From assembly GCF_002005445.1 (NCBI RefSeq), contig NZ_CP014692.1, positions 3,616,001 to 3,680,000 on the forward strand: a stretch of DNA of 64,000 nt, given 5' to 3'. The notes beneath the pieces were generated by a model. That model saw only the letters and a program-made list of their open reading frames with translations, ran no database searches and had not been told where the DNA came from. Of the stretch, positions 27,277 to 45,532 are shown in pieces. Source of the DNA: Acetobacter aceti. Its GTDB lineage: Bacteria > Pseudomonadota > Alphaproteobacteria > Acetobacterales > Acetobacteraceae. Numbering within the stretch: position 1 is the stretch's first letter; each line of letters starts with the position of its first letter. Position numbers and translations under genes: made by a program.

Positions 27277-27715
27277 TTGATCCCCTCAGTATTTTGGTTT
27301 CTCCCCTCGCGGGCTTCGCTCTCGCTGTCCGTTACCTGCGCCCGGTCTTCTTGTGTGAGGGCCGGGGCGTTTTCTGGTGGGCCCGGTAGTCCGCCGCCGC
27401 CTCACCCCCCGCTTCCTGCTCAAAGGGCCTATATTTGTGACTTTGCTGCAACAGGCTGCGGAAAGCGCCCTGCAAGGAAAGCAGGCCCTCAACTTATCTC
27501 GCTGTTTCACGTTCATAACCCCTGAAACCGGCTGCGTCACGGCAGGGAAGCAAGGGGTGCGGGCCATCCATGACAATGGCGACTGATTGCATCCGGACGA
27601 CGACGTGTTAGACAGGACGGCAGATAGACATTCACAGAAGCATAATATGTTTGTCCTGCTGGCTGGCCTTGCGGCCCGGCGGAGGGCTGACGGGGCAACG
27701 GAGAGACTGACGGGC
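27277..27715. other. Gene-free stretch upstream of mlaA
   Basis: Short frames on both strands lack coherent protein features. It is likely the mlaA promoter region. If mlaA starts at an upstream codon (27587 or 27647) this stretch shortens. Confidence 0.5.
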
Positions 27716-28552
27716 ATGGGCTCAGCGAAGGAAGACCTGCATCTGGAAACCTTTTCCAGCACTTCGGGCCATGCGGTGAAAACCCGCGTCCGCGCTTTCC
27801 GTAACGGCACACTCGTGCTCGGAAGTCTGGTTCTTGCCGGCTGTTCATCCATGGTGGCCCCGAAGCCGACAGATCCTGACGCCCTCGCCGACTACCAGGA
27901 AGCGAACGACAAGTATGAACCGTTGAACAGGAAGATGTACAATCTTTCGGTAACGGTGGATAAATACTCCATGCGGCCGGTCGCCAAGGCTTATGTCTGG
28001 GCCGTGCCGGTTCCCGTCCGCAAATCGCTCGGGAACATGGTGCAGACCATGAACGAGCCCGTGGTGTTCTTCAATGACGTTGGCGCAGGCAAGTCGCGCC
28101 GCGCTGGTGACGCGTTTGTCCGCTGGTGTATCAACATGGTGGCCGGTGTCGGCGGCTTCATTGATGTGGCGAAATACGCGGGTTATCCGCACCATGATAA
28201 TGACGGCGGCCTGACCCTTGCTACATGGGGCATTCCATCCGGTCCCTACCTTTTCCTGCCCATGATGGGGCCGTCCACCTTTCGTGACGGCATCGGATAT
28301 GGACTGGATCAGGGGCTTTCACCGTGGAACTATGTTCCGCGCGGCTATGGTCTTCTGACCTTCAACTGGGCCTATAATATCATGGGCATCATAAACACCC
28401 GGGCCAACCATCTCGATGATCTGGACCAGGTTCAGCGGGATGCGCTTGATCCGTATGCAACCATTCGAAGCGCTTACCAGCAGCAGCGCAAGGCCATGGC
28501 GGAGGCCATAAAGAATGACAATCGGGCGACTGTTCCCGATTGGTATAATTGA
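27716..28552 (+). CDS. mlaA: MlaA (VacJ) family outer-membrane lipoprotein
   Basis: MlaA removes mislocalised phospholipids from the outer leaflet of the outer membrane. A lipobox LVLAGC lies at the end of a hydrophobic N-terminus (RNGTLVLGSLVLAGCSS). The MlaA core is clear: DKYEPLNRKMYNLSVTVDKY, PVRKSLGNMVQTMNEPVVFF, DNDGGLTLATWGIPSGPYLF and PMMGPSTFRDGIGYGLD. The start is uncertain, since several in-frame codons precede the lipobox; 27716 gives 278 residues. mlaC follows after 45 bases. The mlaFED transporter genes are not in the window. Confidence 0.9.
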   Translation: MGSAKEDLHLETFSSTSGHAVKTRVRAFRNGTLVLGSLVLAGCSSMVAPKPTDPDALADYQEANDKYEPLNRKMYNLSVTVDKYSMRPVAKAYVWAVPVPVRKSLGNMVQTMNEPVVFFNDVGAGKSRRAGDAFVRWCINMVAGVGGFIDVAKYAGYPHHDNDGGLTLATWGIPSGPYLFLPMMGPSTFRDGIGYGLDQGLSPWNYVPRGYGLLTFNWAYNIMGIINTRANHLDDLDQVQRDALDPYATIRSAYQQQRKAMAEAIKNDNRATVPDWYN

Positions 28553-28597
28553 TCCGCCAGAAGAAAATTCCAGAAGAAGACCAGGGGCAGAGCCGCT

Positions 28598-29224
28598 ATG
28601 CAGACCAGTTTTACCCGTCGCTTCCTGCTTGGAACGCTTGTCGCAGTCAGCCTGATATCCGGCGTGGCCAACCCGGCTTCAGCCGAGGGGACGGCCACGG
28701 CTTTCGTTCGCAACCTTGGCGACCGTCTGGTCGCAATCGTGAACAGCGACCTGTCGGGCCCGCAGAAAAAGGAAAAGGTTCTCCCTATTCTGCAGGGGGA
28801 TGTCGATGTTGACGCCATCGGCCGCTTTTGCCTGGGGCGTTACTGGCGTACGGCAACGCCGGAACAGCAGGCTGACTATCTGAAGCTGTTCCGTCAGGTG
28901 CTGGCTAATACGATTACCGACAAGCTTGGTGATTACCGCGGAGTGAGCTTCACGGTCGGCAGTGCGACACCCAAGGGCGAGGATCAGTCTGTCGACACGA
29001 TCCTGCATCGCCCGCAGCAGGCTGACGCCAATCTTGAATGGATCGTCAACAGCAGCAGCGGCTCGCCGAAGATTGTGGACGTTGTCGCCGAAGGGGCAAG
29101 CCTTCGTCTGACACAACGTCAGGATTATGCCTCCTTCATCCAGCAGCATGGCGGTCAGGTTTCGGCCATCCTGGCTGCACTCAAATTACAGGTCCAGCAT
29201 CATCAGACTGCAAAGTCTGACTGA
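28598..29224 (+). CDS. mlaC: MlaC/Ttg2D-family periplasmic phospholipid-binding protein
   Basis: This is the periplasmic shuttle between MlaA and the inner-membrane Mla complex. The signal peptide is TRRFLLGTLVAVSLISGVAN...ASAEG. The core has DVDAIGRFCLGRYWRTATPE, FRQVLANTITDKLGDY and RLTQRQDYASFIQQHGG, typical of the toluene-tolerance family. It is 208 residues. HpnM, of the hopanoid pathway, is a close relative and cannot be excluded, but the mlaA neighbour favours MlaC. A strong terminator ends the pair. Confidence 0.88.
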   Translation: MQTSFTRRFLLGTLVAVSLISGVANPASAEGTATAFVRNLGDRLVAIVNSDLSGPQKKEKVLPILQGDVDVDAIGRFCLGRYWRTATPEQQADYLKLFRQVLANTITDKLGDYRGVSFTVGSATPKGEDQSVDTILHRPQQADANLEWIVNSSSGSPKIVDVVAEGASLRLTQRQDYASFIQQHGGQVSAILAALKLQVQHHQTAKSD

Positions 29225-32398: not shown

Positions 32399-34189
32399 AT
32401 GACTGTCATATCCCGTATCGAAAGCATGCCCACCATCACTGGCTTTCAGGACACAACACCCTCTCCCGTTCCAACCGCCTCTGGTCAGAAGCGCCGCCAT
32501 GGTGATTTTGCAACCTTCACGGAAGCGCTGGATTACGCCGCCGAGGGGTCCGCTGGATACAACATCTATTCGGGGCGTGGAGTCCTGCTCGAAGCGCTGC
32601 CTTACAGCCTGCTGCGCGAACAGGCCCGTGAAATGGCGCGCCGACTGCTGACGCTCGGGCTTCAGGCCGGAGATCGCGTCGGTCTCATCGCCGAGAGTGA
32701 CGGCGATTTCGCCCGCATCTTCTTCGGCTGCCAGTATGCCGGGCTTGTCGCCACCCCCATGCCGCTGCCTGTCGCATTCGGGGGGCGCGAGACGTATGTC
32801 GGCACGATCCGGGGCATGATCGAAACTGCGGATGTTTCCGCCATTGTCGTGCCGGATATCATCGCGGGCTGGACGGACGACATCATCGCAGGCTTCGATC
32901 TCAAATTCGGTGGGTCACCCGCGCAGTTGATGGAGCTGCCCGCTGCCGACCGGCCGCTGCCGACCATCAAACCCGACGATCTGTCCTATCTCCAGTTTTC
33001 CTCGGGCAGCACCCGCTTCCCGAAGGGCGTCTGTGTGACCCAGCGCTCTGGCATGGCCAACGCGCATTCCATTAGCCGTGATGGCCTTCAGGTCCGTGAG
33101 ACAGGAGACCGTTGCGTCTCCTGGCTGCCGCTCTACCATGACATGGGACTCGTCGGGTTCTTCCTGACGCCCATGGCGTGCCAGTTGACCGTGGATCTGC
33201 TGCCGACCCGTGAGTTTGCGCGGCGTCCGCATGTCTGGCTGGATCTGATGTCGCGCAACAAGGGCACCCTGTCCTACAGCCCGTCCTTTGGCTACGACCT
33301 CTGCTCACGTCGTTCCGGTGCGGCCGACATCGATCTCTCAAGCTGGCGTGTTGCCGGAATCGGTGGCGACATGATCCGCCCTCACATTCTCGAGAGCTTC
33401 GCGGAACGCTTTGCCTCGCAGGGTTTTGATGCCCGCGCGTTTGTCGCCAGCTATGGTATGGCCGAAGCCACGCTCGCCATCAGCTTCGCGCCCCTGAATG
33501 TGGGTCTGCGGACCGATACGATCGATCTGCGTCGTCTGGAAACGGAAGGCGTGGCGCATCCATGTAACGATCCGTCCCACCTGCTGCGGACGTTCGTGCT
33601 GTGCGGCGAGGTTCTCCCGGGCCATGAAATTGAAGTTCGTGGGGCCAACGGCTCCATTCTGCCTGAACGCCATGTCGGCACCATCTATGCGCGCGGCCCG
33701 AGCCTGATGAGCGGCTATTTCCGTCTGCCGAAGGAAAGCGCCGAGGCTCTCAGTGCGGACGGCTGGCTCAATACGGGCGATCTTGGCTACATGCTGGATA
33801 ATCAGGTTGTGGTGACCGGTCGGGCGAAAGATCTGATCATCATCAACGGCCGTAACATCTGGCCGCAGGATCTTGAGTGGAGCGCGGAAAACGAGATCGA
33901 CGGCCTTCGCAACCATGATGTCGCGGTTTTTTCCGTCGAAGAAAATCGTGAGGAAAAAGTCGTGGCTCTGGTCCACTGCCGCGCCACCACACCGGAAGCC
34001 CGCACGACCCTGAGCGAGCGGGTGAGTTCGGTTTTCCGTCGCCATGGCGTGGACGCCACCATCATTCTGCTGCCGCCTCACTCGCTGCCGCAGACGTCTT
34101 CCGGCAAGCTCACACGCGCAAAGGCGAAGACAATGCTTCTGGCGGGCGCTTTCAACCGGCTGGACGAGAACACACCGTCTGCCGCCTGA
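32399..34189 (+). CDS. Fatty acyl-AMP ligase / acyl-ACP synthetase of the sphingolipid locus
   Basis: This is an adenylate-forming enzyme that activates a fatty acid and is expected to load it on the ACP encoded next. The P-loop motif LQFSSGSTRFPKGV lies at about 198-211. WLPLYHDMGLVGFFLTPM, FVASYGMAEATLAISF, WLNTGDLGYM and the hinge/C-terminal region (GRAKDLIIINGRNIWPQDLE, SSGKLTRAKAKTMLL) match FAAL-type rather than CoA-ligase-type proteins. It is 596 residues. ACP and serine palmitoyltransferase follow on the same strand, which points to acyl-ACP supply for long-chain-base synthesis. Confidence 0.9.
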   Translation: MTVISRIESMPTITGFQDTTPSPVPTASGQKRRHGDFATFTEALDYAAEGSAGYNIYSGRGVLLEALPYSLLREQAREMARRLLTLGLQAGDRVGLIAESDGDFARIFFGCQYAGLVATPMPLPVAFGGRETYVGTIRGMIETADVSAIVVPDIIAGWTDDIIAGFDLKFGGSPAQLMELPAADRPLPTIKPDDLSYLQFSSGSTRFPKGVCVTQRSGMANAHSISRDGLQVRETGDRCVSWLPLYHDMGLVGFFLTPMACQLTVDLLPTREFARRPHVWLDLMSRNKGTLSYSPSFGYDLCSRRSGAADIDLSSWRVAGIGGDMIRPHILESFAERFASQGFDARAFVASYGMAEATLAISFAPLNVGLRTDTIDLRRLETEGVAHPCNDPSHLLRTFVLCGEVLPGHEIEVRGANGSILPERHVGTIYARGPSLMSGYFRLPKESAEALSADGWLNTGDLGYMLDNQVVVTGRAKDLIIINGRNIWPQDLEWSAENEIDGLRNHDVAVFSVEENREEKVVALVHCRATTPEARTTLSERVSSVFRRHGVDATIILLPPHSLPQTSSGKLTRAKAKTMLLAGAFNRLDENTPSAA

Positions 34190-34365
34190 TTTCGGAGGCG
34201 CTGTAACGCCCTGTTCACCGGACCGGCACCGTCCGTCACATCAGTGGGGCGTCCGTGGCGTGACATTCCCTCTGGCGAATGACCGTCTTTTCCGCCATAA
34301 CCCCGCAGTTGAGCGGAGACATGCCTTCACAGGCTCCTCCGCAATGACTGTTTTAAGGTGCCCGA

Positions 34366-34617
34366 ATGAGTGAAACGGTTCAGGACGTCTCGGCTCTGAT
34401 CATCAACAAGCTTCTTGCCAATCCCAAAGTCCCCCGTGACATCAGTGGAGCCAGCAAGATTGTTGAAGACCTGGCGTTCGACTCGCTTGCTGTCATGAAT
34501 TTCGTCATGGAAATCGAAGACGAGCTGGACGTGTCCGTGCCTCTCGACCGTCTGGCCGAGATCCGTACGATCGACGACCTTGCCGAATGCATCGTCTCCC
34601 TGAAGAAGGGCAACTGA
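34366..34617 (+). CDS. Acyl carrier protein of the sphingolipid locus
   Basis: An 83-residue carrier with the phosphopantetheine Ser40 in EDLAFDSLAVMNFVMEIED. It is acidic and four-helical, as usual. It lies 176 bases after the ligase gene and six bases before the SPT gene. A dedicated ACP next to serine palmitoyltransferase is known from Caulobacter and Sphingomonas-type loci; it presumably presents the acyl chain to SPT. Confidence 0.93.
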   Translation: MSETVQDVSALIINKLLANPKVPRDISGASKIVEDLAFDSLAVMNFVMEIEDELDVSVPLDRLAEIRTIDDLAECIVSLKKGN

Positions 34618-34623
34618 TCGGTT

Positions 34624-35820
34624 ATGAGCATCTTCGACAAATTCCGCGGCGTCGAACAGCGCCTTGCCGAGCTTCAGGCCGAGGGAGGGCGCAATCCTTT
34701 CTCCGTCGTCATCGAGCGTCCGCTGTCATCGACCGTCGGGATTATCGAAGGCCGCGAAACCCTTCTGTTCGGCACCAACAACTATCTGGGCCTGAGCCAG
34801 TCGCCACGCGCCATTGAAGCCGCCGTGGAAGCCGTGAAGGCCCGTGGCGTCGGAACGACCGGCTCACGCATCGCCAACGGCACGCAGAGCCTGCATGAGC
34901 AGCTTGAGCAGCATATCGCCGGATTCTTTCACCAGAAGCACTGCATGGTCTTCTCGACCGGCTATCAGGCCAATCTGGGCATGATTTCCACGCTGGCGGG
35001 CAAGGGCGACTATCTTCTGCTGGACGCCGACAGCCATGCCAGCATCTACGACGCGAGCCGCCTCGGTCACGCGCAGGTCATCCGCTTCCGCCACAATGAT
35101 CCGGACGACCTGCACAAGCGCCTGAACCGGATCAAGGACGAGCCGGGCGCGAAGCTGGTGGTTGTCGAAGGCATCTACTCCATGACCGGCAATGTCGTTC
35201 CCATGGCGGAAATGGCGGCCGTGAAGCGTGAGACCGGCGCGACCCTGCTGGTGGACGAAGCCCACTCCTTCGGCGTGCTTGGCGCGAACGGACGCGGTGT
35301 GGCGGAAGCGGCTGGCGTGGAAGACGATGTCGATTTCGTTGTCGGCACCTTCTCGAAAAGCCTTGGCACTGTAGGCGGCTACTGCGTTTCCCGTCACCCT
35401 GAGCTGGAACTGGTGCGCCTTCACTGCCGTCCCTACATGTTCACGGCCTCACTGCCGCCGGAAGTCATCGCGGCGACCATGGCGGCGCTGGATGACATGC
35501 AGGCCCAGCCGGAACTCCGCACACGCCTGATGGAGAACGCGGCCCGTTTCCATGAGGGTCTGAACAGCCTCGGCCTGACGACCGGCAGGACGGTCAGTCC
35601 TGTTGTCGGCGTGGTGCTTGAGACAATCCCCGAAGCCATCATGCTGTGGAACACGCTCCTCAGCCTCGGCCTCTACGTCAATCTGAGCCTGCCGCCTGCG
35701 ACACCGGATCATCATCCGCTGTTGCGCTGCTCGGTCATGGCGACGCACACCAGCGAGCAGATTGACCGCGCCGTGGAGATCTTCCGCGAGGCGATGGCGC
35801 GACTGCCTGCTTCTGCCTGA
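34624..35820 (+). CDS. spt: Serine palmitoyltransferase (alpha-oxoamine synthase family)
   Basis: This soluble PLP enzyme condenses L-serine with an acyl thioester to 3-ketosphinganine. The PLP-binding Lys245 is in GTFSKSLGTVGGY. Asp211 is in DEAHSFGVLG and the ring-stacking His138 in DADSHASIYD; GTTGSRIANGTQSLHEQLE is also conserved. At 398 residues it matches bacterial homodimeric SPTs. KBL and BioF are related. The adjacent ACP and acyl-AMP ligase, and the clustered lipid kinase, favour SPT. A hairpin terminator of the repeat family follows. Confidence 0.93.
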   Translation: MSIFDKFRGVEQRLAELQAEGGRNPFSVVIERPLSSTVGIIEGRETLLFGTNNYLGLSQSPRAIEAAVEAVKARGVGTTGSRIANGTQSLHEQLEQHIAGFFHQKHCMVFSTGYQANLGMISTLAGKGDYLLLDADSHASIYDASRLGHAQVIRFRHNDPDDLHKRLNRIKDEPGAKLVVVEGIYSMTGNVVPMAEMAAVKRETGATLLVDEAHSFGVLGANGRGVAEAAGVEDDVDFVVGTFSKSLGTVGGYCVSRHPELELVRLHCRPYMFTASLPPEVIAATMAALDDMQAQPELRTRLMENAARFHEGLNSLGLTTGRTVSPVVGVVLETIPEAIMLWNTLLSLGLYVNLSLPPATPDHHPLLRCSVMATHTSEQIDRAVEIFREAMARLPASA

Positions 35821-35841
35821 GGGCAGCAGGCGCAGAAAAAA

Positions 35842-35878
35842 CCGCCTTTTTGAAAAAAGGCGGCACCCAGAAACTTTT
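35842..35878. repeat. Terminator-like copy of the dispersed palindromic repeat
   Basis: CCGCCTTTTT-ga-AAAAAGGCGG followed by caccCAGAAACTTTTG. It is the same architecture as the other copies read in the opposite orientation, but with GCC/GGC arm ends. It sits 21 bases after the SPT stop and 18 bases from the convergent dadA-like stop, so it can terminate both. Confidence 0.75.
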
Positions 35879-35895
35879 GTTATTTATTATCGGAT

Positions 35896-37158
35896 CTAAA
35901 AAGGAAAAGCGCGCCGCCCGAACCGGAAACGGGTCGGACGATAGGGCAGCGGATCGATATAGGGCGTCTCGCCTTTCATCATCTCGGCGCACAGGCGGCC
36001 TGTCGCCGGCCCGAGCGTAAAGCCCTGATGCGCATGGCCGAAGTGGAACCACAGCCCGGTGTGGGCCGGGGCCTCGCCAATGATCGGCAGCATGTCGGCC
36101 ACACAGGGACGACTGCCTATCCACGGCGTCGTTTCCACGGCCTCGCCAATATCCAGCATCTCCCGCGCCAGCTTCTCGCTCCTGATGATCTGCTTCCATG
36201 AGGGCGGCGCGTCGCGCAGAGCAAACTCCGCTCCCGTAGTCACACGCAACCCCTGCGCCATCGGCAACAACGCCACACCGGCATCCGTGTCGATCATCGG
36301 CGCATTGAGATGGCCGTTCCATTTGAAGTGACGGTGATAGCCTCGCTTCACAAAGAGCGGGAATTTATACCCCATGGAGCGTGTCAGATCGGACGACCAC
36401 GGCCCCAGCGCAATGACAGCCTGCTCGGCTGATACCGACCCGTCAGCAGTCCGGACCGTCCAGCCCGAGGCAAGATGCGCCAGTGTCCTGGCATCGCCAT
36501 GCACGATCTTCCCGCCTCCGGCGACGAACAGGTCAGCGTAACGCTGCACCAGAGCGCCGGGGTCTTTCACACTGTAGGGAGAAGGCCAGTAAACACCTCC
36601 CGTCATTTTCCGATACAGGGCAGGCTCCGCACGGGCCAGCGTCGCACTGTCGAGAATCCGACCTTCGACACCAAACTCACGGGCAAGATGACGGGCTCTG
36701 GCAGCCCCATCGGCAAAACCTTTTTCCGTACGGAAGATCTGGGTCCAGCCACCATGCCTGACCAGATCTCCAGCACCTGCGGCGTCGATCATGCGATCAT
36801 GCTCAGTCAGACAGTGACGGATGAGCGCTTCAAAGCCGCGCGTGATCGTCTCGTAACGCTTTGGGCCGGAATTCCACCAGTATTCCACCAGCCTGGGCGC
36901 GATGGCGGCCAGATCGGACAGCCGGTAATTGACGTCATTTCCCTGCTTGAATGCGACCTGAACCAGCTTCTGGAAATCATGTGGAAAAGCGTAGGGCTCG
37001 ACAGCCTCGCGCTGGATCAGCCCGGCATTGCCATAGGACGTCTCCCGTCCGGGCTCGCCACGCTCGACCAGAACGACATCGTAACCACGTTGCTGAAGAT
37101 GCCATGCGGTGCTGACACCGACCATGCCTCCACCGAGAACAAGTGCTGACCGCGCCAT
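35896..37158 (-). CDS. DadA-like FAD-dependent D-amino-acid dehydrogenase / oxidoreductase
   Basis: The Rossmann FAD-binding motif is at the N-terminus (ALVLGGGMVGVSTAWHLQ, then VVLVERG). The DAO-family core has KDPGALVQRYADLFVAGGGK and VIALGPWSSDL. The C-terminal FAD contact is WIGSRPCVADMLPIIGEAP with FHFGHAHQGFTLGPATGRL. At 420 residues it is the size of DadA, which deaminates D-amino acids at the membrane. The exact substrate cannot be told from sequence. It interrupts two sphingolipid units but has no obvious role in that pathway. Confidence 0.85.
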   Translation of the reverse strand: MARSALVLGGGMVGVSTAWHLQQRGYDVVLVERGEPGRETSYGNAGLIQREAVEPYAFPHDFQKLVQVAFKQGNDVNYRLSDLAAIAPRLVEYWWNSGPKRYETITRGFEALIRHCLTEHDRMIDAAGAGDLVRHGGWTQIFRTEKGFADGAARARHLAREFGVEGRILDSATLARAEPALYRKMTGGVYWPSPYSVKDPGALVQRYADLFVAGGGKIVHGDARTLAHLASGWTVRTADGSVSAEQAVIALGPWSSDLTRSMGYKFPLFVKRGYHRHFKWNGHLNAPMIDTDAGVALLPMAQGLRVTTGAEFALRDAPPSWKQIIRSEKLAREMLDIGEAVETTPWIGSRPCVADMLPIIGEAPAHTGLWFHFGHAHQGFTLGPATGRLCAEMMKGETPYIDPLPYRPTRFRFGRRAFPF

Positions 37159-37313
37159 GCAAAGACACTCCTGTCCGGACAGGGAGTCCGCAGCCTTGTC
37201 AGCGCGTCCCCCGATGATTGTTTTGCCTGATTTTTTCTACAGTAAACCGTGTGGCTTTCCCATAGATGGGCCGGAGATTGGTTGATGGATTTTCCCGGTG
37301 GGCGGGAAAAGGG

Positions 37314-37348
37314 GCTTTATTCTTTTTTGAAAAAACCAGAAAACTTTG
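37314..37348. repeat. Degenerate copy of the dispersed palindromic repeat
   Basis: ctttattcttttttgaaaaa then accagaaaactttg. It aligns with the copy at 35842 in the same orientation, with eroded arms. Confidence 0.5.
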
Positions 37349-37408
37349 ATCGATTAAAAGACATCCCTGTTCGACAGGCTGACTTCCAGACAGGCAAAAG
37401 TCTTTTTG

Positions 37409-37433
37409 CTTCTTTTTCTTCCAGAAAAAGAAG
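37409..37433 (-). terminator. Inverted repeat after the nucleotidyltransferase-like gene
   Basis: CTTCTTTTTCT-tcc-AGAAAAAGAAG is an 11-bp perfect stem, 19 bases beyond the minus-strand stop. It is A/T-rich on both arms. Confidence 0.5.
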
Positions 37434-37451
37434 GCCCCCTCCTCACCGCAA

Positions 37452-38462
37452 TCAGGACGAGCGCGAGAAAACTCCGGCCCGGGCAAGCCGCCACAATACA
37501 GCAGGGGCGCACAGGATCGGGTGACGCTCGGCAAACGGCGTGAGTGTTATGGCGACACCGCTATGGCGCTGAATTTTCCATGTGAGATACCGTGCTCCAC
37601 CGGTAAAGGTGAAGGCTCCCTTGAGCAGCCGCGCCACGTTCAGCGGTCGGCCCAGTCGCGCACGGATCGCCCATTGGCGCAGGGCGATCTGATGCTCCGC
37701 GTGCGCTATGTCCGGCACAATCTCTCCGTCAGGCAGGACGGATGCTTCCAGCCCCCCGGCCACCCATGACGCCGTCAGGAGCTGGCTGAAACGCGGCTCC
37801 TCACCCTCGATCAGGCTGCGGGAGCGACCGCTTTTCTCGACTCTCAGCTCCGCGGCGTAGGTCCGGCGAAAGAGGGCTTCCCAATACTGTTCCGGCTTTC
37901 CCTGATCCGGTCCCAGTGCGGCGGCCCAGCGGGCCGCCGTGCCGACAGCGCGGACAACGCATCGCAGCAGGGAATCCGCCGCCCCGGAATCGCGCACCCA
38001 TACGAGCCGGACGGGCTGGGAAAAGCGCGACCAGATTGTCGTGTCCCGGCTTTGAGGGCGGGTCAGACGCCGAAACTGGTCAAGGGTCAGGATCGCCACT
38101 TTCGCCCGGAGCGGCACGCCGTCGATTTCATGTTCATGATATTCGACGTTTGGTGGCAGAACGGCGTTCGCCGCACGCGCCAGCCAGCCACGAGGCCAGT
38201 CCGCCTGCCGGTCCACGATCACATAGAAATCCAGAACGCCTTCCGACAGGGCTTCCGGCGCAGTATTTCCCTTCGTGAGGGTTCTGACCAGAGAACCATA
38301 GAACAGGACACCGACGGGTCGCGCCGAACCAACCATGCGCTCTACAAAGTGGGTGATGATTGGGGGAACCGGCTCCGTCAGCTCTGCAACCACCGTCCGG
38401 GCGACAACCCCCGCCGCACGCGTTGAGGCCAGGGACCGCCCGGAAGCTGCGTTGCTCAGCAT
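37452..38462 (-). CDS. Nucleotidyltransferase-fold-like protein in the sphingolipid locus, unknown reaction
   Basis: A 336-residue protein. An N-terminal block GVLFYGSLVRTLTKGN followed by LDFYVIVD resembles the GS...DxxVxxD pattern of nucleotidyltransferase folds. I see no signal peptide and no clear membrane span, although the C-terminal third (ARLLKGAFTFTGGARYLTW) could contact membrane. Its start overlaps the end of the upstream lipid-kinase gene by seven bases, so the two are cotranslated and probably act in one pathway. A head-group step on phosphorylated ceramide is my inference. Function not established. Confidence 0.7.
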   Translation of the reverse strand: MLSNAASGRSLASTRAAGVVARTVVAELTEPVPPIITHFVERMVGSARPVGVLFYGSLVRTLTKGNTAPEALSEGVLDFYVIVDRQADWPRGWLARAANAVLPPNVEYHEHEIDGVPLRAKVAILTLDQFRRLTRPQSRDTTIWSRFSQPVRLVWVRDSGAADSLLRCVVRAVGTAARWAAALGPDQGKPEQYWEALFRRTYAAELRVEKSGRSRSLIEGEEPRFSQLLTASWVAGGLEASVLPDGEIVPDIAHAEHQIALRQWAIRARLGRPLNVARLLKGAFTFTGGARYLTWKIQRHSGVAITLTPFAERHPILCAPAVLWRLARAGVFSRSS

Positions 38463-39430
38463 CGGACAAAGGCCATGCGCGGCCCTTCCGTCAGGTGGAA
38501 CAGGCCATCCGTCCCGGCTTCCAGCTCTTCCCCATCCATCACCAGACGATCCTGTGTCCTGATGCTGATGGTTGCCGCCATGCCGCTGCGATAGGCGTTG
38601 GACGCACGCAGGCGGGCTGAGATGCGTCCTCTCAGAACCGAGAGGAGGCTACGAGCCAGACGTGGAGGGTGTCCCAGAATGTCGAGATAGATCAGGCCGC
38701 CTGTCGGACTGGAATCAAGCCAGAAGGGCCAGACGCCACGGGACAGCTTGTGAAGCCCTGTGCACAGGAAAAGAAAGCGGGAGTGAGTGTCCGGCGCGGC
38801 GCCATCCACGGTGAGGGTCATGGGCGAGCCACCGAGCCACTGGTTCCGGACGTCTTTCCGGAGAAAAAGCCGCAGCCCCCACAGGACGGTCGCAAAGATG
38901 GCCGTGTCATGGGCGTAGCGGTCGAGAATGGCCGGATTATGCGCCAGTTCGATGGCGCGGGTGAAGGCCGCCAGCCCGCAGAACATACCCGCTACGGGAA
39001 GCCGGTCCGGATCGGTCCATGAGACAATGACCGGCTGACGCCATGACACATCGTTCATGAGCGTGCCCTGACGTGCTTTCTCCAGGAGGGGCGAGAGTGC
39101 GGACATTTCCCTCAGACTGCACCCGACGTCGCTGGCGATCAGGTTGGTGTTGCCTGAAGGCAGAATGGAGAGGGCAGGGAGGCGCTCCCGAGGATAGGCA
39201 TTCAGGATGGCGCTGATGACATGAGTGACGGTCCCGTCGCCACCATCCACCACAACAACGCGGACATCCTGTCGCGCCAGTTCCCGGACGGCTGCGGTCA
39301 GCCCGTTCCGGCCTTCAGGGCACAGGAAAAGCGGGCCCAGTCTGGCGCGGGCCTGTTCCGCGAACTGTCCCGCATTCTTCATATTGCGACGACTGCGCGG
39401 ATTATGAATCAGGGCAACGCGTTCAGGCAT
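38456..39430 (-). CDS. Diacylglycerol-kinase-family lipid kinase (candidate ceramide/sphingoid kinase)
   Basis: A DAGK-catalytic-domain protein (YegS/LCB5 family). It opens ERVALIHNPRSRRN, with the ATP-binding GGDGT at 63-67 (VVVVDGGDGTVTH) and ILPSGNTNLIASD. The C-terminal beta domain has MDGEELEAG. At 324 residues the length is normal. In Caulobacter a homologous kinase phosphorylates ceramide. Here the location between SPT and the LptF/G-like operon supports a ceramide kinase. It is first in a two-gene minus-strand operon whose promoter lies beside the IS insertion. Confidence 0.85.
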   Translation of the reverse strand: MPERVALIHNPRSRRNMKNAGQFAEQARARLGPLFLCPEGRNGLTAAVRELARQDVRVVVVDGGDGTVTHVISAILNAYPRERLPALSILPSGNTNLIASDVGCSLREMSALSPLLEKARQGTLMNDVSWRQPVIVSWTDPDRLPVAGMFCGLAAFTRAIELAHNPAILDRYAHDTAIFATVLWGLRLFLRKDVRNQWLGGSPMTLTVDGAAPDTHSRFLFLCTGLHKLSRGVWPFWLDSSPTGGLIYLDILGHPPRLARSLLSVLRGRISARLRASNAYRSGMAATISIRTQDRLVMDGEELEAGTDGLFHLTEGPRMAFVRC

Positions 39431-39605
39431 TCGGCAATCCGCTCTTTTCAGACCACCGTCCCGGACGGCTTAAATTCCGCAAGTAAGCGGCGTCATATAA
39501 ACGGGCATCGCAAATTTGTCACATGCGCTGTTCTGAATGCTTCCTGCCTCCTCTCTGCGGTCATGCACCGTACGCAAATCATCTCTGCGGGTTCATGGCG
39601 TTTAA

Positions 39606-39621
39606 GGTTTGTGGGGATTCA
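39606..39621 (+). repeat. Left terminal inverted repeat of the IS
   Basis: GGTTTGTGGGGATTCA, 15 of 16 positions matching the right end. Confidence 0.8.
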
Positions 39622-40370
39622 TCGTGAATGAATGATAGCTGCGACGAGATAGATCATGGCGCTGAAGCTTTTGTCTGTTTTGTCGGCCCGCATCGCGATA
39701 CGTTTAAATTCCTTGAGTTTACAGAAGAAGTTCTCGATCAGATGACGCCATTTGTATATTTCGCGATCCAGCGGCAGTGGCTTTGAGCGCCTCGGATGCT
39801 GGGAAATGACAACCGTGGCGCCCCTTTCATCAAGATCGGCAATGATGCTGTTGCTGTCGAATGCCTTGTCTGCGATGAAAGCGTCGAATTCGAGACCGTC
39901 AATCAACGGTGGCACGTCCACGCTGTCAAAGCGTTGGCCGGGCATCAGGCGAAAGCGCACCAGATTGCCCAGAGCATCCGTCAGCGCGAGAATCTTCGTC
40001 GTCATGCCGCCTTTCGAGCGCCCTATGGCCTGGCTCTGAGTCCCCCTTTTGCGCCCTGACCATGACGGTGAACTTTCACGATCGTTGCATCGACCATGAC
40101 ATACTCCATGTCCGGATCGCCAGACAGGGCATCGAAAATCCTTTTGAAGACATCAGTGTTCCGCCAGTCGCTGAAGCGACGGAAGGCCGTGCTCCAATTG
40201 CCAAATACGGCAGGAAGGTCACGCCAGGGACTACCTGTTCGTACAATCCACAGCACTGCTTCCATAAAAAGGCGGTTGTTTCGACCACTCCGTCCTGGAT
40301 CTGTCAATTTGCCAAGACAGTGAGGTTCAATCTGCGCCCATTGGGCGTCCGTCAGCACAAAACGTTCCAT
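39619..40370 (-). CDS. IS5-family transposase in two frames joined by -1 frameshift
   Basis: The first frame (40370 to 40023) starts MERFVLTDAQWAQIEPH and has GRNNRLFMEAVLWIVRTGSP, WRDLPAVFGNW and MVDATIVKVHRHGQGAKGG. The second frame contains QAIGRSKGGMTTKI, FIADKAFDSNSI and RRHLIENFF-type text (KWRHLIENFFCKLKEFKRIA), giving the DDE catalytic residues. On the minus strand AAAAGGGGGA at 40050-40041 is a slippery site. A -1 shift there joins AKGG to TQSQAIGRSKGG, as IS5-type elements require. Both frames look intact, so the element may be active. Confidence 0.88.
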
Positions 40371-40401
40371 CCAGAGCTTGAATCATATCTCAAGCTCTTT
40401 G

Positions 40402-40417
40402 TGAATCCCCACAGACC
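40402..40417 (-). repeat. Right terminal inverted repeat of the IS
   Basis: TGAATCCCCACAGACC on the plus strand; its complement matches the left end with one mismatch. Confidence 0.8.
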
Positions 40418-40622
40418 TTAATTGATGGGATGAACCACGGCGTTGCGGGCTTCGAAAAAACATGCGTTCTGGTGTAGAGAAGAGCGTTGCCTATAATTCG
40501 ACCCTCAGCACTCTTGATTGACCAGACGGTTTGAGGGATCGATGCAGCAGATTGGGAGCAAGGCCCCTCTCAGGAACCGTGACCCTCAAGGGATCTGCAC
40601 AGGCAGGTCAGGAAGCCGCACC

Positions 40623-41537
40623 TTGTCAGTCGTTCTGGCACATCTGTCCGATCTCCATCTGCCGCTTGCAGTCGTGCCATCCTCCCGTGAATGGGCGATC
40701 AAGCGGATTATCAGCATCATTTCATGGCGCTGTAACCGACGCCATGTTCACAGAGCCCGGGCCCTCGCCGCTGTCATGCGTGATATCGAGACCAGCAGGC
40801 CGGATGCGCTGGCCATTACAGGCGACCTCACCAATCTGGGCACCCGCGAGGAATGTATCGCCGCAGGATGGTGGCTGGATCGCGCACCCTCGCCGCGCGC
40901 TGTCATTCCCGGCAATCATGACACCTTGATCCGCGCGCCCTGGACGGACGGTCCGGGATTGTGGCGCGATGCCGGAGGGATGCCGGATGCCGAGACCCCG
41001 GTTTTTCTACAGGTTGGAGACATTGCGCTGATCGGCGTCAGTTCGGCGGTCCCTTCACCTCCCTTTTTCGCTTCCGGCCGGGTCAGCGACATACAGATCG
41101 ACAGGATGGCTGAGCGGCTCCGTCAGGCTGGCGAGCAGGGGCTATGCCGGGTGGTGATGATTCATCATCCGCCACGCAAGGGGATGGTCGCCTGGACCAA
41201 GGCGCTGCGCGGGGTGGACCGCTTTGCGCAGGCCGTCCGTTCCGCCGGAGCGGAGATGGTCCTGCATGGCCATTCTCATCAGGGGACGTTCAGCGAGATT
41301 CCCGACAGCGATATTCCGGTCATTGGCGTCACTTCAGCCTCTCACAGGCCCGGCCACAGTCTGAAGCGGGCGGCGGGCTGGAACCGAATCAGTATCCGGA
41401 AAGAAAGCGGTATGTGGCAGATCGCCGTAGAGTCCCGTCGTCTTGCGGCGGATGGCCAGCTACATGCTTTCCGGACGACCCGTTTCACACGCCCCGTCCA
41501 GACAGAAGTTTGTCCGGCGAAAGAGACCGTCCTGTGA
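40623..41537 (+). CDS. Calcineurin-like metallophosphoesterase, first gene of the LptF/G-like operon
   Basis: Metal-ligand motifs of the family are in order: AHLSDLHL, ITGDLTNLG, IPGNHDTLI, VMIHHPPRKG and LHGHSHQGTF. I choose a TTG start (protein beginning SVVLAHLSDLHL after the initiator) with AGGAAG eight bases upstream, giving 304 residues. An ATG 27 codons further upstream exists but adds a tail outside the family. The stop overlaps the LptF-like start as GTGA. The family context suggests a phosphatase for a lipid or nucleotide intermediate, for example pyrophosphate-linked head groups; this is inferred. Confidence 0.82.
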   Translation: MSVVLAHLSDLHLPLAVVPSSREWAIKRIISIISWRCNRRHVHRARALAAVMRDIETSRPDALAITGDLTNLGTREECIAAGWWLDRAPSPRAVIPGNHDTLIRAPWTDGPGLWRDAGGMPDAETPVFLQVGDIALIGVSSAVPSPPFFASGRVSDIQIDRMAERLRQAGEQGLCRVVMIHHPPRKGMVAWTKALRGVDRFAQAVRSAGAEMVLHGHSHQGTFSEIPDSDIPVIGVTSASHRPGHSLKRAAGWNRISIRKESGMWQIAVESRRLAADGQLHAFRTTRFTRPVQTEVCPAKETVL

Positions 41538-42814
41538 CGACACCAGGGAACGACCGCTACACGCCTCCACTTGCGAGGCTACCCTCCCGGCTCCGTCCCG
41601 GAACGCTCGACACCTATCTGCTGGGCCAGACCATTCCGCCGTTTGTCATCGCCGTTTCAGTGGTGCTGATCGCGCTGCTGCTTGAGCGGCTTCTGGTGCT
41701 TCTGAACATTCTCGCCTCCGAAGCGAGTCCCTTCTTTACCCTGCTGCGGCTTCTGGCCGACCTGATGCCCCACTATCTGGGTCTGGCCATGCCCGCTGCG
41801 CTCTGCGTGTCCGTCTTCACGGTCATCCGTCGCATGAGCGAAGGCGACGAGATCGACGCCCTGATGAGCAGCGGCGTCTCGCTGGTCCGTATCTGTCGTC
41901 CCTTCGCGCTGACCGGGGCCGCCATCGGGCTGCTTTCGATCCTGCTCTACGGTTATATCCAGCCGCACGCCCGTTACCAGTTCCGGGAAGGTTTCTATTT
42001 TGCGAGCCATGCCGGATGGGCGCCTGTCCTGCAGTCCGGCATGTTCGCCGAGCCCTCTCCACGCCTGATGCTGACTGCGGATCATGTCAGTCACGGCGGT
42101 TCGCAGCTGAGCGGGGTGTTCATCCGCGATCTGAGCGAAGGCAAGGAACGTGATATCACCGCGCAGACCGGCACGCTCCGCACCGATACGGTCAAGGGAG
42201 AGGTTCAGGTCGAACTGTTCAATGGCTCGATTCTGACGATCCGGACGGGTGTGCAGCCCACAGTGACCACCTTTGATCATGCTGAACGCCTGATCAGCCG
42301 TTCCAGCAAGGTGACGTTCCGTAATCGTGGCGATGATGAACGTGAACTCACGTCCCGCGAGCTTGCCCGAAAGATCGATGCTGTTCGCCATGCTGCCAGA
42401 GAGGAGCCACCGCAGGATGCGGATATGGATGCAGTGTCCGATGCCGCCGCCAGCAACGAAATCCCTCTGGCGAGTATGCGGGCCGAGCTGCATTTCCGGC
42501 TGGCCCGCAGCCTGTCGATTCCCTTTATCCCCATTCTCGCCACTGCTCTGGCTGTGATCGGAAAACGCAAGAGAGGAGGCGCCGGACTGGCCGTGGCGGC
42601 GCTGCTGCTGGTGACATACGACCATATTCTCCAGCTCGGGGAAAGCCTGATCGCGAGCGGAAAATCATCGCCGCTTCTGGTCATCTGGCTGCCGACGCTG
42701 GTGTTCTGCGTGGCCTGTACCGTGCTGCTCCTGTTCAGGGCCAGTATTCTGCCGATACGCCGTCGTCGTCTCTCCGGTTCTGCTGCGGCTTCGTCAGGAG
42801 AGACGGCGCGATGA
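41534..42814 (+). CDS. LptF/YjgP-like permease, sphingolipid-locus paralogue
   Basis: This is a six-helix inner-membrane permease of the LptF/LptG family (YjgP/YjgQ). The first pair of helices lies near LIALLLERLLVLLNILASEA. The coupling-helix region is VFTVIRRMSEGDEIDALMSSG, followed by a large periplasmic beta-jellyroll domain (about residues 130-300). Three C-terminal helices start at LSIPFIPILATALAVIGKR. A GTG start in a 4-base overlap with the preceding stop gives 426 residues. LptFG normally extract LPS. The location with lptG, hydroxylase and cytidylyltransferase-like genes in a sphingolipid locus suggests a lipid other than LPS as cargo. Confidence 0.87.
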   Translation: MTTPGNDRYTPPLARLPSRLRPGTLDTYLLGQTIPPFVIAVSVVLIALLLERLLVLLNILASEASPFFTLLRLLADLMPHYLGLAMPAALCVSVFTVIRRMSEGDEIDALMSSGVSLVRICRPFALTGAAIGLLSILLYGYIQPHARYQFREGFYFASHAGWAPVLQSGMFAEPSPRLMLTADHVSHGGSQLSGVFIRDLSEGKERDITAQTGTLRTDTVKGEVQVELFNGSILTIRTGVQPTVTTFDHAERLISRSSKVTFRNRGDDERELTSRELARKIDAVRHAAREEPPQDADMDAVSDAAASNEIPLASMRAELHFRLARSLSIPFIPILATALAVIGKRKRGGAGLAVAALLLVTYDHILQLGESLIASGKSSPLLVIWLPTLVFCVACTVLLLFRASILPIRRRRLSGSAAASSGETAR

Positions 42815-43971
42815 GCGACCCTGACATTGCAAAAGGCCCCAGGCATGTTCTGCTGGGATATCTGTCACGGGCCCTGCTTTCCCGCACCGCGATGTGCAGC
42901 GGCATTCTCATCGCCCTGATGGAGATTCTGGCGCTGCTTGAGCAGATGACGCCGATCCTCAAGCGACAGCTCGGCATCAGGGGCGTGCTGACCTACATGG
43001 GACTGCATCTGCCGGCGATGCTCCAGACCGCCCTGCCTCTCAGCACGCTGATCGCCGGGCTGCTGATGTTCACACAGATGACCATCTCCAGTGAAATCGC
43101 CATTCTCCGGGCCGCCGGTCTTTCCCCATGGGGATTCATGAGGAAGCTGCTGCCGTCAGCGCTTCTTATCGGACTGTTCGGGTGCGTGCTGGAGGACCAG
43201 ATCACGCCACGGACCGAACTTGCGCTTGCTTCGTGGTGGAACCGTACCAACCCGACTCCGGACAACGGCAAGCCCTTCTGGTTCCATGTTCCCGCCGGCG
43301 TGGCCGAAGCCTGCATGGGATCAGCCACCGGACTGCCCGCAACAGACAGTGAACTCGCCCATGTCGGCTATATCTCGAGGGCCGGACGGGAAGCCTTCAA
43401 TATCGATCTGTATGATCGCAGCGCGAACGGACGGATTCTGCGCACGTTGCACGCGGCGCACGCCGTCTACAGCTTCAGCGGCTGGCATCTGTCCGACATT
43501 CACTGTGTGACGGTCTCCTTCGCGGAACTGGACACCACTGCGAATGAGAGTACCGTTCTCGACGCGCTCTGGAAAAATCCTTTCGGTCCAAACGATATGC
43601 TGCGCCTTTCTCTGGACTCGGCTCCCCTGTCGTCCGGCATGATTCTCGCGGCGCTTCACGGCACAGTCGCCACCAACCAGACACCCGGATATCTGCGGGC
43701 CGCGCTGTTCGAGCGCTTTCTCAGGCCGTTCACTCTGATCGTCATGCTTTTATTGGCGATGCCGGTGATCTATATACCCCCCAGAACCGGTCTAAGGAGC
43801 TGGTTGCCGGTCTGGTGCCTTGGCGCCGGTCTGTTGTTCATCATTGTGCAGGGCATGTTCCGTGCGATGGGCAACGCAGGTCTCCTGCCGGCTCCTGTCG
43901 CGACTGTCCCCGGCCTTATCATCTTTGCATTGGCCGCCGGGACCGCGTTATTGAGGAACGAAGACAAATGA
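42811..43971 (+). CDS. LptG/YjgQ-like permease, sphingolipid-locus paralogue
   Basis: Partner of the preceding permease, with an ATGA overlap. It has helices near MCSGILIALMEILALLEQMT and PAMLQTALPLSTLIAGLLMF, and the cytoplasmic helix MTISSEIAILRAAGLSPWGF. A periplasmic domain (about residues 135-270) follows, then C-terminal helices from FLRPFTLIVMLLLAMPVIYI, a typical LptG region. It is 386 residues. Two such proteins would need an LptB-type ATPase, not encoded here; the housekeeping LptB could be shared. Confidence 0.87.
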   Translation: MSDPDIAKGPRHVLLGYLSRALLSRTAMCSGILIALMEILALLEQMTPILKRQLGIRGVLTYMGLHLPAMLQTALPLSTLIAGLLMFTQMTISSEIAILRAAGLSPWGFMRKLLPSALLIGLFGCVLEDQITPRTELALASWWNRTNPTPDNGKPFWFHVPAGVAEACMGSATGLPATDSELAHVGYISRAGREAFNIDLYDRSANGRILRTLHAAHAVYSFSGWHLSDIHCVTVSFAELDTTANESTVLDALWKNPFGPNDMLRLSLDSAPLSSGMILAALHGTVATNQTPGYLRAALFERFLRPFTLIVMLLLAMPVIYIPPRTGLRSWLPVWCLGAGLLFIIVQGMFRAMGNAGLLPAPVATVPGLIIFALAAGTALLRNEDK

Positions 43972-44762
43972 GTGGCACCCTGCGGAACCCAACCATCCGG
44001 TCGGGGCGGAGCTTCGATCTGGGCAAGATGAATCTGCGTCAGCTCTGGATCGCCTATCTGACCTACCCCACGATTCTGCTGTATTTCGCCCTCATTGTAG
44101 TCAGCGTCTTCCTTGGCGCGCATTTCTTCGCAGGCTGGGGCGCAACGGCGGCCTCGATCCTTGCCGTCATGCTGGTCTATCCGGTTGTCTGGTATTCCCT
44201 GCATCGCTGGATTCTGCATGGACAGTGGCTCTACAAGTCCCGCTGGACCGCTTCCCTCTGGAAACGCATTCACTTCGACCACCATCAGGACCCGCATCTT
44301 CTGGACGTCCTGTTCGGCGCGCCTGCCACGACTCTGCCCACCATCGGTGCCGTGACGATTCCCGTGGGCTGGCTGATTGGTGGCTGGGGGGCTGCTGCGA
44401 CCGCCTTTGGCGCGGGTGTGACGATCACTTGTATTTACGAATTCTTTCACTGCATCCAGCATCTGAACTACAAACCGAAGGCCGCATGGATCCAGCGGAT
44501 GAAAGCGTGGCACGTCCTGCATCACTTTCATGATGAGGATGGCAACTTCGGCATCACCAGCTATGTCGTGGACCGTGCATTCGGCTCTTTCTATGAAGAA
44601 GCCCGCGCCCGTCCCCGTAGCCCCAGCGTGTTCAACCTCGGCTACAATCTGGAGCAGGCGAAGCGGTATCCGTGGGTCATGAAGCTGACCGGCTCTCCGC
44701 CACGCGACCGGCCCGATGGTGGCCGTCCTGCCGCCCGCCCAGCCAGCCGTGACGCCGCGTGA
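43968..44762 (+). CDS. Fatty-acid-hydroxylase / sterol-desaturase superfamily membrane enzyme
   Basis: A di-iron membrane oxygenase type with four or so hydrophobic helices. Clustered histidines form the signature: SLHRWILHG (His79, His84), HFDHHQDPH (102-110), FFHCIQHLN (161, 165) and WHVLHHFHDEDGNFG (182-188). This matches the superfamily that includes fatty-acid 2-hydroxylase (Scs7/FA2H). Acetobacter ceramides are known to carry 2-hydroxypalmitate, so hydroxylation of the ceramide acyl chain or base is a reasonable role. It overlaps both neighbours by four bases. Confidence 0.85.
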   Translation: MSGTLRNPTIRSGRSFDLGKMNLRQLWIAYLTYPTILLYFALIVVSVFLGAHFFAGWGATAASILAVMLVYPVVWYSLHRWILHGQWLYKSRWTASLWKRIHFDHHQDPHLLDVLFGAPATTLPTIGAVTIPVGWLIGGWGAAATAFGAGVTITCIYEFFHCIQHLNYKPKAAWIQRMKAWHVLHHFHDEDGNFGITSYVVDRAFGSFYEEARARPRSPSVFNLGYNLEQAKRYPWVMKLTGSPPRDRPDGGRPAARPASRDAA

Positions 44763-45532
44763 GTGAGTCCGGGCTGACAGCGATCGTTCTGGCCGGGTCA
44801 CGCGCAGGAGCCGCTGACCCGATGGCCGTCACCGCCGGACTTTCGCACAAGGCGCTGCTCCCGATTGCCGGAACACCGATGATCTCGCATGTGCTCGATA
44901 CGCTGCGTGCTGTGCCGAGTGTCGGGCGGATCATCGTCTGTATTGAAAACCAGAATGTTCTGAAGGGGATTCTGCCGGACGGCGTGGAGACCATGAGCGC
45001 CGCACAGGGACCGAGCGCGAGCGTTCTGGCGGCCATTCGTGACTGTGGGACTCCTCTGCTGGTCACCACGGCTGACAATCCGCTTCTGCGCCCGGAATGG
45101 GTGCAGTTTTTTCTGGATGACGCCGGAACAGCCGATATTGCCGTCGGTGTCGCCAGCGAGGCTTCTGTGACGCGGGATGTGCCTGGAACCAGCCGGACTT
45201 TCATCCGTCTTTCCGATGCCGCCTTTTCAGGGTGCAATCTTTTTCTGTTCCGTACACCCGCTTCCGCAAGAGTCGCCATGCTCTGGCAGAAGCTTGAAAA
45301 GGAACGCAAACACCCGGTCCGGATGGGGTGGCTGCTTGGTCCTTCCATCCTGCTGCGGTTCCTGCTGAAGCGTCTGGCGACAAAAAACCTGCTTGCACGT
45401 ATTCGGAAACTCACTGGGGCGCAGGGGAAATTTGTCTTCATGCCGGATGGACGTGCGGCTGTGGACGTGGATAAACCTGCTGATCTCGTGCTGGTAAGCC
45501 GTCTGATGGAAGCGACTCCGGACTTTCGGTGA
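44759..45532 (+). CDS. MobA/IspD-like NTP transferase, last gene of the LptF/G-like operon
   Basis: Rossmann-type nucleotidyltransferase. The N-terminal LTAIVLAGSRAG loop is followed by HKALLPIAGTPMISHVLDTL (conserved Lys31). TTADNPLL holds the metal Asp106, and VDVDKPADLVLVSRL matches the end of sugar-phosphate and cytidylyl transferases. The GTG start overlaps the hydroxylase stop (GTGA); 257 residues. No cofactor-pathway gene is near, so a molybdopterin or MEP role is unlikely. A head-group-activating cytidylyl- or similar transferase for a phospho-sphingolipid is my inference, parallel to the phosphoglycerate cytidylyltransferase described for Caulobacter ceramides. Confidence 0.82.
   Translation: MSESGLTAIVLAGSRAGAADPMAVTAGLSHKALLPIAGTPMISHVLDTLRAVPSVGRIIVCIENQNVLKGILPDGVETMSAAQGPSASVLAAIRDCGTPLLVTTADNPLLRPEWVQFFLDDAGTADIAVGVASEASVTRDVPGTSRTFIRLSDAAFSGCNLFLFRTPASARVAMLWQKLEKERKHPVRMGWLLGPSILLRFLLKRLATKNLLARIRKLTGAQGKFVFMPDGRAAVDVDKPADLVLVSRLMEATPDFR

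Follow-up and report, generated by a model that had tools for sequence, protein, structure and literature searches.

The closest described counterpart of the locus studied here is the Caulobacter phosphosphingolipid locus CC_1168–CC_1152. According to the portions of the papers available to us, CpgB and CpgC are both required for the lipid CPG in Caulobacter, CC_1153 and CC_1158 both act in the formation of CPG2, and CC_1161 has been reported with a cytidine diphosphate diacylglycerol (CDP-DAG) synthase domain (PMC11324152); CpgD makes CDP-glycerate (PMC12275187; PMC13228409). In the same portions, LptC2, LptF2 and LptG2, together with CC_1166, were proposed to move phosphosphingolipids, with transport stated as unknown (PMC11324152), and no sphingolipid transporter was said to have been identified (PMC11087976), so that both 2024 papers call the bacterial sphingolipid route to the outer membrane unknown (PMC11324152, PMC11087976). 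Our study examined a sphingolipid locus at positions 32399–45532 of a 64 000-nucleotide stretch of the Acetobacter aceti genome (contig NZ_CP014692.1, positions 3 616 001–3 680 000; hereafter the window), which is a version of the Caulobacter locus and contains an lptF–lptG pair, lptF2 and lptG2. We consider it likely that this locus makes a phosphorylated, head-group-bearing and probably hydroxylated ceramide, which would be moved to the outer membrane by a sphingolipid-specific LptF2G2 extractor.

A preliminary description of this DNA had listed an acyl-AMP ligase, an acyl carrier protein, a serine palmitoyltransferase (SPT), an overlapping kinase and nucleotidyltransferase, a metallophosphoesterase, LptF, LptG, a hydroxylase and a nucleoside triphosphate (NTP) transferase, and the open reading frames (ORFs) and domain scans confirmed all ten genes within 32399–45532. 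Nine of the proteins have orthologues in Caulobacter vibrioides, with identities spanning 28–60 %, and the named C. vibrioides record (L168) has the published CC_1168–CC_1152 gene order. The forward strand begins with aasR (32399–34189), encoding a fatty acyl-AMP ligase of 596 aa (PF00501; NF006624, 882 bits against a cut-off of 600; 55 % identity to the C. vibrioides orthologue), followed by the acyl carrier protein gene acpR (34366–34617; PF00550; 50 % identity over 56 residues) and spt (34624–35820; NF047599, 639 bits against a cut-off of 500; 60 % identity), for which the top PDB matches were solved SPTs. On the reverse strand, cpgC (37452–38462; 43 % identity to its C. vibrioides counterpart in the position of CC_1161) overlaps by 7 bases with cpgB (38456–39430; PF00781; 32 % identity), the orthologue of CC_1160 and a diacylglycerol kinase-family ceramide kinase, as reported for Caulobacter CpgB in the available part of PMC11324152. 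Both genes stand in the same divergent order as in Caulobacter. The forward strand then resumes with the metallophosphoesterase gene mpe (40518–41537; PF00149; 36 % identity to its orthologue CC_1158), lptF2 (41534–42814; PF03739; 36 %), lptG2 (42811–43971; PF03739; 28 %), a gene for a PF04116 fatty-acid hydroxylase-family membrane enzyme (43968–44762; domain scan run on 43815–44762) whose histidine boxes are conserved, with invariant histidines in a 13-sequence alignment, and ntpT (44759–45532; PF12804), encoding a MobA-like NTP transferase with 40 % identity to its orthologue at the CC_1153 place. Each junction from mpe to ntpT is a four-base overlap, with the GTG start codon of lptF2 at 41534 lying inside the stop of the phosphoesterase gene, and this suggests one translationally coupled operon.

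That the sphingolipid genes have an LptFG pair of their own, as the preliminary description held, was borne out by the genome as a whole. The window pair as the only LptFG of the organism, which the preliminary description had named as grounds for refutation, was rejected, as a second pair was found, and this other pair adjoins the sole LptD found. CpgC was present in 31 of 120 genomes of the same family, and all 18 CpgC-positive genomes that were counted carried four (n=16) or six (n=2) LptFG genes, whereas ten CpgC-negative genomes carried two (n=9) or one (n=1). A sample of 337 alphaproteobacterial genomes contained 38 with CpgC (best six candidates scored per genome). PF03739 genes were counted in this sample from the best five candidates per genome; in 12 of the CpgC-positive genomes every candidate was also scored, with the same result. 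LpxC, as a gene of lipopolysaccharide (LPS) synthesis, was searched for in 68 genomes, including all 38 with CpgC. The 17 genomes with both CpgC and LpxC, spanning nine families, carried four PF03739 genes (n=16) or at least five (n=1), whereas the 21 with CpgC and no LpxC, spanning 12 families, carried two in 19 cases, three in one (genome G362) and none in one (G189, 82 % complete). Fisher's exact test of LptFG count against LpxC gave P=3e-11 by genome and P=3e-6 by family, values that ignore deeper kinship. Four LptFG genes were also counted in the CpgC-negative genomes G141 and G364 of the class sample, and three in G144, G205, G346 and G409. LpxC was found in all 14 CpgC-less genomes of this search, and LpxB was also absent from 19 of the 21 LpxC-less genomes with CpgC. 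LptD occurred exactly once in each of the 43 genomes searched, of which 20 had no LpxC, and a single LptC was found in 29 of 36, with two in Caulobacter.

The pair in the window was compared with housekeeping LptFG by quick trees, comprising a joint tree of 71 pairs with LptF and LptG joined and separate LptF and LptG trees. The 71 pairs were hand-chosen before any tree was built; complete pairs left out were L037, L041, L042, L043, L086, L090, L093, L107, L126, L129 and L225, and the one-gene loci L212, L219, L242 and L246 and copies of loci already included also stood outside. All 30 housekeeping pairs, every one from a genome with LpxC, fell on one side of a branch with Shimodaira–Hasegawa-like approximate likelihood ratio test (SH-aLRT) support of 100 in the joint tree, 98 for LptF and 96 for LptG. 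The other side held 24 sphingolipid-locus pairs of presumed LPS makers (20 with LpxC found, and four named records, L120, L123, L155 and L165, labelled as LPS-positive without an LpxC test), 11 sphingolipid-locus pairs of LpxC-less genomes, three pairs of family f13 and three extra pairs. With the extras excluded, the 38 sphingolipid-locus or f13 pairs grouped with a support of 85 in the joint tree. Six long or odd rows were removed for the last tree. The window pair thus falls apart from the housekeeping pairs, as the preliminary description had anticipated, and does not group with the sole pairs of LPS makers. The LptFG of those LPS-less genomes that entered the tree is thus of the sphingolipid class, like the window pair.

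These results bear on whether LptF2G2 could be a second LPS exporter, as a duplicate or for a variant LPS, sited by chance in a sphingolipid locus. Both are PF03739 proteins with matches to the LPS-export models TIGR04407 (LptF2, 189 bits against a cut-off of 230, run on 41507–42814) and TIGR04408 (LptG2, 171 bits against a cut-off of 240), although below the cut-offs of models on which the housekeeping pair was not run. Additional pairs also need no tie to sphingolipids, as extra LptFG pairs lie near glycosyltransferase genes in genomes G029 and G079. However, in 13 of 16 fetched LpxC-less loci cpgC and the pair share one 20-kb stretch (in G176 they are about 11 kb apart on the same contig), LpxB is missing from most LpxC-less genomes, and the trees set apart the 30 housekeeping pairs, which come from LPS makers. 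A second LPS exporter is, on this evidence, highly improbable. The trees also contained a third LptFG class (L244/L263 in G029 and L247/L264 in G042), which in G029 stands amid genes for glycosyltransferases and CDP-alcohol transferases; it may act on a different lipid, or take the place of LptFG2 where that was lost. In genome G079 (L265, 8319–11580) an LptFG pair of highly divergent sequence adjoins glycosyltransferase genes and is accompanied by an ATP-binding cassette ATPase gene of its own.

Gene order was compared across 20 same-family stretches of 16.7–20 kb around cpgC. The co-occurrence across the family that the preliminary description had put forward as a check was observed, with cpgC, cpgB, mpe, lptF2, lptG2, the hydroxylase gene and ntpT in identical order in 19 of the 20, which indicates that this is not a chance neighbourhood. 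In one stretch, L053, cerS stands between the hydroxylase gene and ntpT; the exception to the order is L052, from G029, where the cassette is without mpe, lptF2 and lptG2. Within the class sample, lptF2 and lptG2 accompany cpgC in 17 of 20 fetched stretches. Loci of other types were also seen. In L175 (Acidocella aminolytica), L177, L178 and L180 a different SPT locus holds CpgD-like and LptG2-like genes, with no cpgC in the fetched stretch; the profile scores for L175 were 98 bits for lptG2 and 30 bits for lptF2. In L113, L114, L116 and L118 a metallophosphoesterase gene lies between spt and cerS, with no cpgC or lptFG2 within the fetched stretch.

LptF2G2 might instead serve a different lipid of the outer membrane, with genes that simply accompany those for sphingolipid, as co-occurrence does not allow the substrate to be named. 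The neighbours of the pair in G131 and G442 are cerS and a fatty-acid desaturase family gene, the latter lying between lptG2 and cerS in L266 of G131 and between the lptFG2 pair and cerS in L267 of G442. Genomes G131 and G263, both of family f13, have the sphingolipid class of LptFG without a CpgC match, so the class is not tied to a phospho head group alone. In the three f13 genomes G131, G263 and G442, LpxB was absent and SPT present; LpxC, tested in G442 only, was absent there. Against an export of another lipid, LptFG counts track CpgC and LpxC across 21 families. Furthermore, G021, of the same family as the window organism, has SPT and CerS, no CpgC and only two LptFG genes, and the second pair, at least there, seems to track the phospho-head-group genes rather than ceramide itself, a pattern that G131 and G263 do not follow. 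The fetched loci also hold lptFG2 with ceramide and head-group genes, although, as spt or cpgC was the basis on which these loci were selected, the arrangement carries little weight. We regard another lipid as an unlikely substrate and a sphingolipid as the favoured one.

Several observations nevertheless count against a sphingolipid extractor. Genome G029 keeps spt, cpgC and LpxC with a cassette lacking mpe and lptFG2. The second LptFG pair of this genome falls elsewhere in the tree, grouped with a third pair from G042. G116, too, shows no pair near cpgC, and the tree did not include its second pair. The pair of G442 adjoins cerS and is distant from cpgC. SPT is present in G184, a 100 % complete single-contig genome in which LpxB and LptFG were not found. 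Genome G141 has its four LptFG genes with no SPT match at E=1e-120. Traces of LpxB were seen in two LpxC-less genomes (a match of 105 bits in G176 and weak pieces in G392), and LptC was not found in six of the 36 genomes searched. Overall, the LptFG2 class is present with sphingolipid genes, with or without LPS genes, with the exceptions of G029, probably G116, and G184.

The product of the locus was considered from CpgC and the head-group genes. CpgC gave no Pfam match in the domain scan, and a PDB sequence search was unproductive. The best PDB match to its structural model (predicted local distance difference test score of 91) was the mitochondrial CDP-DAG synthase Tam41 (Foldseek E=1.4e-7, probability 1.00), with 12 % identity and a TM-score of 0.49 by query length. 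A conserved Y-G ... D-x-Y pattern in the CpgC alignment is taken here to be a nucleotidyltransferase motif. The Tam41 match agrees with the CDP-DAG synthase domain of CC_1161 and suggests a CDP-ceramide intermediate. CpgC is probably a Tam41-like CDP-lipid synthase, a CTP:ceramide-1-phosphate cytidylyltransferase that would activate ceramide phosphate to CDP-ceramide; this probable substrate would distinguish it from Tam41.

Orthology alone might suggest that the locus makes the CPG2 of Caulobacter, with diverged enzymes encoded elsewhere standing in for CpgA and CpgD, as nine window proteins are orthologous to that locus, including CC_1153 and CC_1158, which both act in CPG2 formation. However, the CpgA profile found no match in 24 same-family genomes, including that of the window, in a search with no positive control, yet the same profile picked up cpgA in many class loci. 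The NTP transferase at 44759–45532 was rejected as CpgD, as its match is the protein in the CC_1153 position and a blastp comparison with CpgD gave nothing at E=1e-4. CPG2 itself is thus an unlikely product, and the head group probably differs from that of CPG2 because CpgA was not found. CerS is unlinked in the window's genome (1458851–1460002, at 1.459 Mb; E=3.5e-100). The search detected it in each of 18 CpgC-positive genomes of the same family, among them that of the window, and in three of six CpgC-negative genomes. The preliminary description had proposed a head-group-bearing hydroxyceramide; the wider comparison supports a sphingolipid role, and the protein comparison shows the NTP transferase to be a CC_1153 orthologue, and the head group and hydroxylation are predicted from the gene content.

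Taken together, we propose that AasR, AcpR, Spt and the unlinked CerS would make ceramide, that CpgB would phosphorylate it, and that CpgC, with its Tam41 fold, would probably activate the phosphorylated ceramide to CDP-ceramide. Head-group steps would then fall to the NTP transferase of CC_1153 type and the phosphoesterase of CC_1158 type, and the PF04116 enzyme may hydroxylate the lipid. LptF2G2, presumably with the common LptB ATPase, would pull the lipid from the inner membrane and pass it, presumably by way of LptC and LptA, to the single LptD-ended bridge that also serves LPS. The LptFG counts, the trees and the single LptD suggest a role for LptF2G2 as an extractor of sphingolipid that delivers to a shared LptD. 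On balance, we favour a scheme in which two versions of the Lpt machine differ at the inner-membrane extractor, with LptFG1 loading LPS, LptFG2 loading sphingolipid and one LptD serving both; Alphaproteobacteria that lost LPS would have lost LptFG1 and kept LptFG2 and LptD, building their surface with an Lpt machine that never handles LPS.

A specialised LptFG export of a ceramide lipid, as first described from this DNA, is consistent with the counts, trees and co-occurrence, with the transport step itself predicted from them; the idea had already been published for Caulobacter, where the available part of PMC11324152 proposes transport by LptC2, LptF2 and LptG2. What is new is the comparison of LptFG counts with CpgC and LpxC over 337 genomes. 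No report of the pattern of LPS loss and LptFG was found in the open-licence literature, judged by titles and abstract starts among the matches listed. The genome comparison sharpens a suggestion based on the locus to a prediction of one extractor per lipid and one shared outer-membrane gate. If true, this would account for the function of LptD and LptFG in bacteria that lack LPS genes, and clean test organisms would be available among strains in which LPS genes are absent and only one LptFG pair is present.

Two features of the locus were absent from the preliminary description. An IS5-family insertion sequence of 820 bases (39602–40421), with 20-nt inverted repeats that are 95 % complementary and DDE and DUF4096 transposase ORFs, is not a member of the pathway. 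An 87 % identical element occurs in Kozakia, and the closest plasmid relatives of the element and one neighbouring gene are found in Kozakia, Komagataeibacter and Acetobacter, with remoter matches in Sinorhizobium and others. The element lies in the gap from which cpgB and the lptFG2 operon diverge and may change the expression of that operon in the present strain. A D-amino-acid-dehydrogenase-like (DadA-like) gene (35896–37158) lies between spt and cpgC. This FAD oxidoreductase was rejected as CerR, as it belongs to the D-amino-acid dehydrogenase family and has no tblastn match in the 20 same-family cpgC stretches; phmmer matches in relatives reached only 25 and 15 bits, both away from the cassette. 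Genes for MlaA and MlaC (outer-membrane lipid asymmetry) lie at 27587–29224, a few kilobases upstream of the sphingolipid locus.

In comparison with known systems, the window shares orthologues of AasR, AcpR, Spt, CpgC, CpgB, CC_1158, LptF2, LptG2 and CC_1153 with Caulobacter CC_1168–CC_1152, whereas CpgA, CerR, CerS, CpgD and LptC2 were not among its locus genes by domain scans (genome-wide searches for CerR and CpgD were not made). The genome of the window has one LptC and Caulobacter two, and the window operon holds a PF04116 hydroxylase, whereas the acyl hydroxylase reported for Caulobacter in the available part of PMC11324152 is the unlinked, DesA-type CC_0202. The window pair shares the PF03739 family and adjacent lptF–lptG order with the housekeeping LptB2FG(C)/LptD exporter, but it is not beside lptD and lies across a branch of 100 support from the 30 housekeeping pairs. 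Sphingomonas is described, in the available part of PMC10964400, as having glycosphingolipid envelopes without lipid A, and the LpxB-less genomes in our study likewise carry SPT and the LptFG2 class. Unlike Sphingomonas, which has no lipid A (PMC10964400), the window organism has both LpxC and LpxB, and so should make both lipids.

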